Shown piece by piece: positions 11,322 through 14,830 of a stretch of DNA of 50,062 nucleotides (position 1 is the first letter of the stretch; each line of letters starts with the position of its first letter). A model generated the notes under the pieces. It ran no database searches. It was not told the origin of the DNA and saw only the letters and a list, made by a program, of their open reading frames with translations. The stretch lies in assembly GCA_024693325.1 (NCBI GenBank), contig JAILLA010000007.1, positions 1 to 50,062 of the forward strand, given 5' to 3'. This stretch comes from Solobacterium sp. (GTDB taxonomy: Bacteria; Bacillota_I; Bacilli_A; Erysipelotrichales; Erysipelotrichaceae). A program made the translations under genes and the position numbers.

Positions 11322-11370
11322 AGGTTAGCCTCCTATAACAGAATTAATGGTATCACAAAACTTCAATTTT

Positions 11371-11401
11371 AAAAAAGCGGCAGGACATATTTGTTCTGCC
11401 G
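11371..11401 (-). terminator. Intrinsic terminator of the csoR-copA operon
   Basis: CGGCAG(A/G)ACA/TGTCCTGCCG stem with a short loop and six T on the minus strand, 14 bases after the copA stop. Confidence 0.75.
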
Positions 11402-11414
11402 TATCTGACCGTTT

Positions 11415-11624
11415 TTACGCGATCGCTGTAACTTTGTAATCTTTTGCTTCAACAGCTGCTTTCAGGACTTCATCGCTGACTTCCTTGCTGAGAACAGCAA
11501 CTGCCTCATTCCTGGTTCTGTCTGCTGATGCGCTTTCGACTCCGTCGATCGCTTCCAGCGCCTTTTTCACGCTTGCTTCGCAATGTTCGCACATCATTCC
11601 TTCTACTGTTAATGTCTTTTTCAT
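11415..11624 (-). CDS. Possible CopZ-like copper chaperone translated from an internal start in copA
   Basis: Within copA and in its frame, ATG at 11624 is preceded by AAAGGAGG eight bases away, as good a ribosome site as any in the window. Initiation there would give a free 69-residue HMA protein ([21 protein letters not shown] at the start, reaching the copA stop), exactly CopZ-sized. E. coli makes a similar CopA(Z) from copA by frameshifting; here an internal start would do it. The layout suggests a former separate copZ joined to copA by loss of the intervening stop. Expression is not shown. Confidence 0.5.
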
Positions 11625-14456
11625 TTTCGTGGCCTCCTTTACCATTCCGACATATGTATAGTCTTTTGCTTCGATTGCCTGTCTGATCACTTCCGGATCG
11701 ACATCCTTTGTAACTGTGATCACCGCTGTTCCGGCAGTATGATCTGCCTTCGCACTTTCAATACCGTCGATCGCCATCAATGCTTTCTGTACTGTGGCTT
11801 CGCAGTGCTCACACATCATTCCTTCGATCTGTACTGTTTCTGTTTTCAGTTCACATACACAGGGTTCTTCTTCCCTCAGAATGCCAATATATTTGTAGTC
11901 TTTTGCTTCAACTGCCTGTTTGATCACTTCCGGATCGACATCCTTTGTAACTGTGATCACTGCTGTTCCGGCTGTATGGTCTGCTTTTGCGCTTTCGATG
12001 CCATCGATCGCCATCAGTGCTTTCTGTACTGTGGCTTCGCAGTGTTCACACATCATTCCTTCGATCTGTACTGTTTCTGTTTTCAGTGCACAGGAAGCAT
12101 CACATGCACATGTCTCAGCGTTCACAGGTTCTTTTTCTTCTATTTCAATCTTCTCTGCAGGCAGCGCTCTTTTCTTCAGCGGCTTATCCTTTGCGCTGCT
12201 GTGCATGTTGAAGAGATTCAGTCTCAGGGCATTCGATACGACCGTTACACTGGAAAGGCTCATTGCCGCAGCACCGATCATCGGGTTCATCTTGTACCCA
12301 TACAGACCTGCAGCCAGCGGGATGCAGATCAGGTTGTAGAAGAATGCCCAGAACAGATTCTCATGGATATTCCTGACAGTCTGTCTGGACAAGCGGATGG
12401 CTGCAGGTACATCACTCAGCTGTGATTTCATCAGCACGATATCCGCTGCGTCGATCGCTACATCTGTTCCTGCGCCGATCGCAATGCCTGTATCAGCTCT
12501 TGTCAGAGCCGGTGCATCATTGATGCCGTCTCCTACCATGGCGACTTTTCCGCGTTTCTGGAGTTCCCTGATAACAGCTTCTTTGCCGTCCGGCAGCACA
12601 CCGGCTATGACATGGTCAACGCCTGCCTGCGCACCGATCGCCTTCGCTGTACGTTCATTGTCACCCGTCAGCATCACTACTTCGATGCCCATATTCTGCA
12701 GTTCCCTGACAGCCTGCGGTGAATCTTCCTTGATTACATCAGCGACTGCGATCATACCCAGCAGACGGTCATCTTCCGTAAACAGCAGCGGTGTCTTGCC
12801 CTGTGAAGCAGCCTGTCCGGCTGTTTCTTTCATAGCCTGCGGCATCCTGCTGATGGAACTGATGTACTTCAGGCTTCCGCCCTGCAGTACATGACCGTTC
12901 AGCTTTGCCTTCAGGCCGTTTCCGGGCAGTGCGGAGAATTCCGTCACTTCATCTGCTTTGATATGCAGTTCTTCTGCTTTCTCAACGATCGCCCTGGCAA
13001 GGGGATGTTCCGATTTTGTTTCCAGCGCGAATGCTTTTCCAAGCAGTTCCGCTTCCGTAATCCCTTCAGCCGGTACGATATCCGTTACCTTCGGTTCTCC
13101 GCTTGTGATCGTTCCTGTTTTATCCAGGGCAACGATCTGTACTTCTCCTGCTGTTTCAAGTGATTCGCTTGTCTTGAACAGGACGCCGTTCCTTGCCGCA
13201 AGACCGTTGCCTACCATGATCGCTACCGGTGTCGCAAGACCAAGCGCGCACGGGCATGAGATGACAAGCACGGTAATGCCGCGTGCCAGGGCGTCCGCCA
13301 GGGAAGCTCCGGTAAGCAGCCATCCGATGACTGTGATCGCCGCAATGCCGATGACAAACGGTACAAAATATCCGGCAATGATATCCGCCTTGCGGGCGAT
13401 CGGTGCCTTGGTGGCAGCCGCGTCAGATACCATCTTGATGATCTGTGAGAGTGTCGTATCCTCGCCGACCCTGGTTGCCCGGCAGCGGATAAAGCCGGAC
13501 TGGTTGACGGTAGCCGCAGATACGGTATCGCCTTCCGATTTGTCGACCGGAACGGATTCACCTGTCAATGCTGATTCATTGACGGCACTGTTTCCTTCAA
13601 TGATCACGCCATCCGTGGGAATGCTTTCTCCGGGACGCACCACGAAGATGTCACCGGATACGACTTCATCGATATCCACTTCTGTTTCCACGCCGTTCCT
13701 GATCACGTTTGCCTTTTTGGGAGCCAGATGCATCAGGCTCTTCAGTGCATCTGTTGTCCTGCCTTTGGAGCGGGCCTCCAGCATCTTGCCGATCGTGATC
13801 AGAGCGGGGATCATGGCTGCGGACTCGTAATACAGTTCATTCTGATAGACGTCCATCACCTCAGCGGGACTGACCCCGGCAGTCACCATACCGGTGATCT
13901 TATAAAATACGAATGTACTCCAAGCAAAGGCCACTGATGAGCCGAGCGCTACCAGCGTATCCATGTTCGGGGATCCGTGGAGCAGTGACCTGAAGCCGCT
14001 TGTAAAGAAATCCTTGTTGGCGATCAGGATCACGATCGTCAGCAGCATCTGTGTGAGTGCCAGTCCTTCATGATTGTGTTCAAAGAAAGAAGGCAGGGGC
14101 AGTCCCAGCATATGGTGTCCCATCGTGAAATACATCAGTACGAGCAGGAAGCCGACCGACATCAGCAGACGACGTTTCAGTTTCGGCGTTTCCCTGTCTT
14201 TCAGCGCGTCTTCCTCGGCAGCCAGCTTGGCGGAAGCGCTGATCTTTTCCTGAGACGCACCCTTCACGGATGCCCCGTATCCGGCATCCTGTACCGCCCG
14301 GATAATATCAGCGGATGATGCCGTCCCTTCTACACCCATGGAGTTCGTCAGCAAACTGACACTGCAGGAATCGACTCCCGGTACTTTCGATACTGCTTTT
14401 TCTACTCTTGCCTGGCATGCAGCACAGCTCATGCCGGTAACGATATACTGTTCCAT
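11415..14456 (-). CDS. copA: Copper-exporting P1B-type ATPase with one N-terminal and three C-terminal HMA domains
   Basis: This 1013-residue protein pumps Cu(I) out across the membrane. An N-terminal heavy-metal domain has MSCAAC at residues ~9-14. The ATPase core then shows TGES, the transmembrane [11 protein letters not shown]u site, DKTGT phosphorylation loop, SEHPLA and GDGINDAP. After a linker (residues ~765-790) three more HMA domains follow, each with EGMMCEHC, at about 791, 872 and 945. The usual CopA is about 800 residues with HMA domains only at the N-terminus. HMA 2 and 3 are encoded by a 237-bp tandem repeat. csoR is 12 bases upstream in the same operon, and the last domain has its own ribosome site. 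Confidence 0.95.
11656..12087 (-). repeat. Tandem 237-bp repeat encoding duplicated HMA domains
   Basis: Bases 11656-11850 and 11893-12087 are nearly the same, from AGTCTTTTGCTTC to the CTGTTTTCAG end, a period of 237 bp (79 codons). The high nucleotide identity indicates recent duplication or ongoing conversion within copA, so copy number may vary between strains. Confidence 0.85.
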
Positions 14457-14468
14457 AGTATGACCTTT

Positions 14469-14783
14469 CTACTTCATCAGTTTCTGAAGGACCTTGACCA
14501 GCTCATCGATCGATTCATCCTGGCCTGCGCGGATATCCTCCGCGACACAGGATCTGATATGAGCTGCCAGCAGTTCCTTATTGAAACTGTTCAGGGCACT
14601 TGTTACGGCAGATACCTGGATGAGGATATCCGGACAGTACATATCACTGTCCACCATCTTTTCGATCCCCCTGATCTGCCCTTCTGCTTTTTTCAGTCTC
14701 AGCAGCAGTGCCTTTTTCTCTTCTTCTGTTCTTTTCTTATGTCTTGTTCCGCAATGCGGACATTCCATCATTTCTTCACTCAT
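14469..14783 (-). CDS. csoR: CsoR-family copper-sensing repressor
   Basis: This 104-residue all-helical repressor is of the CsoR/RcnR family. The Cys-His-Cys copper ligand set appears as MYCPDIL, then AAHIRSC, with the family RLKKAEGQIRGIEKM helix before it. Copper binding releases DNA and induces copA. An extra N-terminal CPHCG motif is present. It starts with ATG after GAGGT and lies 12 bases before copA. A near-perfect CsoR operator sits in its promoter. Confidence 0.93.
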   Translation of the reverse strand: MSEEMMECPHCGTRHKKRTEEEKKALLLRLKKAEGQIRGIEKMVDSDMYCPDILIQVSAVTSALNSFNKELLAAHIRSCVAEDIRAGQDESIDELVKVLQKLMK

Positions 14784-14801: not shown

Positions 14802-14830
14802 AATATATACCCCCAGGGGGTATAAGTCAA
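14802..14830 (-). promoter_or_regulatory. csoR-copA promoter with embedded CsoR operator
   Basis: On the minus strand TTGACT (14825-14830), a 17-base spacer and TATATT (14802-14807) form a strong promoter. The whole spacer is the palindrome TATACCCCC-A-GGGGGTATA (14806-14824), the G-tract type of site bound by CsoR, so binding would block RNA polymerase. Confidence 0.85.

Follow-up and report, generated by a model that had tools for sequence, protein, structure and literature searches.

A probable internal ribosome site within copA of Solobacterium and related bacteria, with a free CopZ-type copper chaperone as its predicted product

The window analysed here, that is, the whole stretch of 50,062 nucleotides, is a contig of a Solobacterium sp. 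assembly of 3.6 Mb that is 92% complete. Relatives carrying the same family label include G141, whose copA locus (L128) is identical over the compared part to L193 of Catenisphaera adipataccumulans, which places the organism near Erysipelotrichaceae. It carries a copA gene whose product has one HMA domain in its N-terminal part and three in its C-terminal part (Pfam HMA; Table 1). The protein scored 573.6 bits against the NCBIfam copper ATPase profile TIGR01511 (cut-off 397), and 658.2 against PRK10671, the profile of the E. coli-type CopA, which is under the cut-off of 1316 set for that family. The adjacent gene codes for a CsoR-like protein that scored 71.8 bits against NCBIfam RicR, under the cut-off of 175, and is preceded by the palindrome ATACCCCCTGGGGGTATAT, which we take to resemble a CsoR operator. 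At the other end, a hairpin with a T run lies 3' of the copA stop and could be a terminator; it was found by eye, was absent from the output of a scan that allowed loops of up to 8, and is followed by the gene for another protein. HMA domains 2 and 3 of CopA (window 11658-12074) have almost the same protein sequence, pointing to a recent tandem duplication, and the number of C-terminal HMA domains varies among 57 copA genes of the same genus (one in 16, two in 36 and three in 5).

Table 1. Position of the copA locus features within the window and evidence for each.
Feature	Position	Strand	Evidence
copA, Cu-transporting P1B-type ATPase, 1013 aa	11415..14456	-	ORF, domain matches, TIGR01511
N-terminal HMA domain, at copA start	14277..14447	-	Pfam HMA
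Second HMA domain of CopA, without preceding start codon	11892..12074	-	Pfam HMA, sequence
Third HMA domain of CopA, without preceding start codon (internal control)	11658..11837	-	Pfam HMA, sequence
Internal Shine-Dalgarno AAAGGAGG, in copA frame, within codons for V-K-E-A	11633..11640	-	sequence
Internal ATG, copA codon 945, predicted second start	11622..11624	-	sequence, conservation in homologues
Predicted 69-aa CopZ-type chaperone, ATG to shared copA stop	11415..11624	-	ORF; HMA domain at 11433-11615
CsoR/RicR-like repressor gene (104 aa), separated from the copA start by 12 nt	14469..14783	-	NCBIfam RicR
GC-rich palindrome ATACCCCCTGGGGGTATAT, before csoR-like gene	14805..14823		sequence
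Hairpin and T run 3' of copA stop, possible terminator	11371..11401	-	by eye

Between the third and fourth HMA domains, in the frame of copA, sits GGTAAAGGAGGCCACGAAAATG. An earlier note made from the sequence alone had described here an in-frame AAAGGAGG standing 8 nt before an ATG that opens a complete 69-residue HMA protein with an MxCxxC motif and shares the copA stop, and every one of these features is present. A Shine-Dalgarno and a start codon at initiation spacing and in frame with the longer gene are the arrangement seen in genes with in-frame internal initiation. The predicted duplex with the 16S rRNA tail reaches -11.7 kcal/mol, compared with -3.8 at copA's own start, and of the 7321 other in-frame ATGs across the copA genes compared, only 8 pair as strongly (dG <= -11.65). 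No match to the 16S tail was found in this 92% complete assembly, and the canonical anti-Shine-Dalgarno was present in all six relatives searched. Along the 50 kb window, AAGGAGG has a single minus-strand occurrence, at the internal copA site; the plus strand has four, of which three stand 5-10 nt before an ATG. Synonymous recoding of the gene's own linker reached the strength of the site in 3.9% of draws, and for mRNA structure the comparison of this single gene with its synonymous recodings gave 38%. The site of this gene is by itself modest evidence, and the case for an internal start is strong because relatives were compared, rather than through the statistics of the gene itself.

The 69-residue piece is a complete HMA domain of the size of CopZ (~70 aa), covered by Pfam HMA at model positions 1-62 of 62 (46.4 bits, cut-off 24.8), and its metal motif is MMCEHC, of the MxCxxC type. 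Its scores are under the cut-offs of the NCBI curated CopZ families (51.7 vs 85, 50.9 vs 91 and 40.2 vs 95). The piece resembles the solved CopZ chains 6ff2 and 2qif, its Met standing one position ahead of the segment that aligns with 2qif residue 3. The whole assembly gave 11 HMA matches, of which CopA accounts for four, a second metal ATPase for six and a membrane-anchored protein for the last; none of the 11 is a soluble free CopZ, whose gene could fall in a gap of the 92% complete assembly. The second ATPase, a frame of 1211 aa (G000:C59 2401-5886, loci L005-L008), has its six HMA domains before the core. Ruminococcus albus AR67 (G651) gave three matches, two in CopA and one in a DCANC-type small protein, and a separate CopZ of the MMCxHC type was found in neither of these two assemblies, where gaps are possible. 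Furthermore, we inspected 20 small-HMA regions among the matches listed, from the Solobacterium genome, 14 relatives (one of them twice) and 4 named genomes, and most were membrane-anchored, DCANC-type or CSMCE-type proteins. The relative G013 has a soluble GMHCIHC protein (L381) that is another possible chaperone, together with a fused copA (L014) whose internal Shine-Dalgarno is weak. A type of protein that recurs in the order, and is found in the Solobacterium genome too, is small and membrane-anchored and combines a CC motif with an HMA domain at its C terminus (L369, L370-L375, L377-L380).

A free chaperone could also come from a separate short transcript made from an internal promoter, or from proteolysis of CopA. 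A 2017 study by Drees on E. coli copA reportedly names differential transcript formation in its title, which counts in favour of a separate transcript. A simple scan of positions 11330-12350 gave no sigma-70-like site, a weak argument against an internal promoter, and if proteolysis were the source both the Shine-Dalgarno and the start codon would be needless, so that we consider an origin of this kind unlikely.

The possibility of internal initiation was examined across homologues in four panels, all collected regardless of the presence of a ribosome site. Panel A consisted of 144 copA loci of the same order (30 + 14 + 100 regions); matches were found in 249 of 315 genomes, from which mainly the better-scoring were taken and about 105 matching genomes, mostly more distant, were left out. 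Panel B comprised 80 loci from genome records containing GMMC[ES]HC or GDGINDAP, which at least 594 stretches match. Panel C held all 106 places that match the C-terminal part at E <= 1e-40 (30 loci and 76 regions); they lie in 105 genomes out of 291, an even draw from the class to which Ruminococcus albus belongs. Panel D held 9 loci (among 30) from the same class as Solobacterium and outside its order. The total was 339 loci, 3 of them duplicates and 2 cut by contig ends. A C-terminal HMA domain was fused in the copA frame in 294 loci (A 141, B 51, C 94, D 8), and copA was unfused in 40 (A 1, B 28, C 10, D 1), the latter being under-counted in panel C because its query contains the HMA domain. 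Five proteins whose HMA domain is without the leading G (L089, L141, L147, L148, L149) were included as exceptions. Our strict criterion was an ATG, GTG or TTG 6-18 codons before the metal motif together with a Shine-Dalgarno dG <= -8 kcal/mol, the threshold and the window to -18 having been fixed after inspection of the first sequences. The start window had been widened from -6..-11, for sites and controls alike, because four loci (L099, L107, L125, L129) have an upstream Met with a Shine-Dalgarno.

Of the 294 fused genes, 264 have an ATG 6-11 codons ahead of the metal motif of the terminal HMA domain, 277 have any start codon 6-18 codons ahead of it and 227 have a start with a strong Shine-Dalgarno under the strict criterion (A 106/141, B 42/51, C 72/94, D 7/8), although the homologues are related by descent and these counts are non-independent events. 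Non-terminal C-terminal HMA domains of the same proteins served as controls, and they had an ATG in 5 of 67 cases, any start in 27 and a start with a strong Shine-Dalgarno in 2. With the initial window (-6..-11) the corresponding figures were 143/185 for terminal and 2/62 for non-terminal domains, and an earlier, smaller count found the signal in 0 of 10 second N-terminal HMA domains. By comparison, copA's own start was strongly paired in 110 of 208 genes (also an earlier, smaller count), and among 172 genes with both starts the internal Shine-Dalgarno was the stronger in 113 and the weaker in 58.

Such a stretch might be a mere by-product of a linker rich in K and E, with the Met an ordinary residue and full-length CopA the only product. 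The linkers are indeed K- and E-rich, recoding alone gives about 80 strong sites out of 277, and the Solobacterium gene reaches the strength of its site in some recodings, as noted above. However, in 500 draws of synonymous recoding with the own codon usage of each gene, a null that ignores the tree, a mean of 79.8 and a maximum of 100 strong sites were obtained, against 227 observed in 277, and the excess was found in all panels (observed vs recoded: A 106 vs 34.0, B 42 vs 18.0, C 72 vs 25.7, D 7 vs 2.0). Other in-frame ATGs reached the threshold in 159 of 7321 cases. When such ATGs were matched for a charged or polar linker (at least 5 of the 7 preceding residues being K, E, D, R, G, Q or N), 19 of 280 were strong, compared with 176 of 216 terminal sites with a linker of this type and with the 2/67 of non-terminal domains. 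In addition, GGAG stands in all three reading frames across the strong sites (162, 54 and 5, with 6 sites lacking GGAG), so the same nucleotides encode KEE, KGE or TGG, and it lies 8-9 nt before the start in 167 of 221. Within the genus, two GGAG frames are used (in 23 and 18 genes) and 39 distinct seven-residue linkers occur among 43 genes, showing that the signal persists despite changed linker residues and a shifted GGAG frame. We rejected a purine-rich linker artefact on the grounds of synonymous recoding, matched linkers and GGAG frame changes, and regard the by-product explanation as very improbable.

SD-like sequences have been proposed to slow ribosomes, and the site is located at a domain border, where a programmed pause could aid the folding of CopA without any initiation. 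Against this, the start codon is kept at initiation spacing, GTG and TTG included: genes with Val or Leu at residue -8 have GTG (5 genes), TTG (1) or another codon (4). The corresponding borders ahead of non-terminal HMA domains are without the signal. Furthermore, mRNA structure is lowered at the start, which in 275 of 276 genes is less folded than the gene's other ATGs, partly an effect of composition, and which is less folded than synonymous recodings, again a null that ignores the tree, in 107 of the 139 genes compared (every second one; mean -3.26 vs -5.02); at non-terminal domains this held in 13 of 32 (mean -11.00 vs -11.14). A pause site is disfavoured by these data and there seems very little chance that it accounts for the signal.

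The earlier note had explained the internal site by a loss of the copA stop in a former csoR-copA-copZ operon, the fused copZ keeping its translation signal, and had pointed to close relatives as a source of evidence for or against it. A separate copZ at the copA site was sought in 60 loci of the same genus, of which 57 were fused, 2 were cut by contig ends and 1 had a frame break; none had an intact unfused copA followed by a separate copZ. Relatives that have the same fusion without a ribosome site would speak against internal initiation, and the opposite mostly applies, as 55 of the 57 fused genes of the genus have a start, 43 a strong Shine-Dalgarno and 2 no start. A recent fusion of copA and copZ that left the signal behind as a neutral relic is extremely unlikely and was rejected, since the signal of fused genes occurs across the order and in a second class, above what the protein sequence demands, and none of the 60 same-genus loci has an intact separate copZ at this position. 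In favour of a relic, a standalone copZ does follow copA in the other class where the two are unfused (e.g. L340, L346, L355, L356, L365 and L368). The dual output suggested in the note is thus strongly supported by the sequence comparison, and the stop-loss history, as a recent event, is not.

The strict criterion was missed by 67 of the 294 fused genes, 17 of them without a start in the window and 50 with a weaker Shine-Dalgarno, often of -5.9. Of 21 genes that lack a usable site (no start reaching dG <= -5.5), 6 have a separate Met-bearing HMA frame within 350 nt downstream, compared with 16 of 270 others (Fisher p 0.002, kinship being ignored and the downstream proteins being of other types). 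Such a difference would fit a situation in which a free chaperone from either source is enough. In one locus of the same genus (L098, genome G090) the copA frame ends four codons past the internal ATG and the HMA domain continues in another frame, possibly through an assembly error, decay or slippage.

Both internal in-frame starts and chaperones derived from copA are already known. E. coli copA yields a chaperone from its 5' end via frameshifting (PMC7558416, PMC5009743). The two cases are alike in that one copA gene gives a copper ATPase and a chaperone of about 70 aa, whereas the E. coli chaperone is the first part of the protein, terminated early after the frameshift, and ours would be the last part, made in frame from a predicted second start; the candidate described here is not an N-terminal chaperone ended by a -1 frameshift. 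In many bacteria copZ is typically a separate gene beside copA (PMC7558416, PMC10187127), and such genes share with the internal site an HMA domain with MxCxxC, a size of about 70 aa and their own Shine-Dalgarno and start, but here the same codons encode the C-terminal domain of CopA as well. Internal starts of this type are reported for the CTP1L endolysin of Clostridium tyrobutyricum, where an in-frame start frees the C-terminal domain (PMC4777826), and for Cas11b of Haloferax volcanii, where an internal Met of the longer cas8b ORF starts a second protein (PMC11899642). The first is a phage lysin of other function and the second part of an archaeal CRISPR complex, and both products are proven, while that of copA is predicted. 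No report of internal initiation in copA was recognised among the open-access papers listed. Programmed -1 frameshifting in E. coli copA, giving CopA(Z), was reportedly the subject of work by Meydan and by Drees, both of 2017, and the CopA of Archaeoglobus fulgidus is reported to have a C-terminal metal-binding domain, a likeness in the position of an HMA domain at the C end of a copper ATPase.

The ribosome site and the complete HMA domain of this gene, conservation beyond codon constraint and lowered mRNA structure across the homologues, and the lack of another soluble CopZ-type protein among the HMA matches of the assembly are observed directly, and together they make it very probable that this copA is a two-product gene giving the pump and, by way of the internal start, its last 69 residues as a free CopZ-type chaperone. 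We further think it probable that copA is such a two-product gene across much of the gut Bacillota, as well as in scattered other phyla, its terminal domain doubling as free chaperone. This would be a widespread and overlooked counterpart of E. coli CopA(Z), sited at the other end of the gene and able to do without a separate copZ. In the mechanism that we propose, copper would lift repression by the CsoR-like protein and a single csoR-copA mRNA would be made; ribosomes entering at the copA start would produce the full-length pump, and others entering at the internal site would produce the chaperone, perhaps in excess because the internal Shine-Dalgarno is stronger than that of the copA start. 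A stable small product would then bring Cu(I) to CopA and hand it over, and selection would keep both uses of the last HMA domain.

Gene callers that allow one protein per frame would miss the predicted chaperone in many Erysipelotrichales and Clostridia-type genomes, which would then appear to be without CopZ. If confirmed, the internal start would mean that two bacterial groups use one gene as pump and chaperone via different translational routes, and would suggest that a chaperone dosage tied to the pump is itself under selection. The comparison also offers a test for internal starts, in which the last of several like domains has the signal and its sister domains are without it.

The same fused domain with a Shine-Dalgarno and a start was also seen in L174, L196, L197, L202, L205 and L207, records titled Treponema, Elusimicrobiales, Coriobacteriaceae, Anaerobiospirillum, Spirochaetia and Olsenella. 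Apart from the Olsenella record these are assemblies binned from metagenomes, in which sequences may have been misassigned. Additionally, several relatives (L015, L017, L021, L022, L023, L034, L043, L044, L047, L059, L061, L069 and L072) have a small HMA frame of a distinct type (MKQITLGIDGMMCGMCESHINDAIR...) just after the copA stop or overlapping it; this frame is absent from the Solobacterium window, and where it was read to its end it closes with KKKGLFGF.
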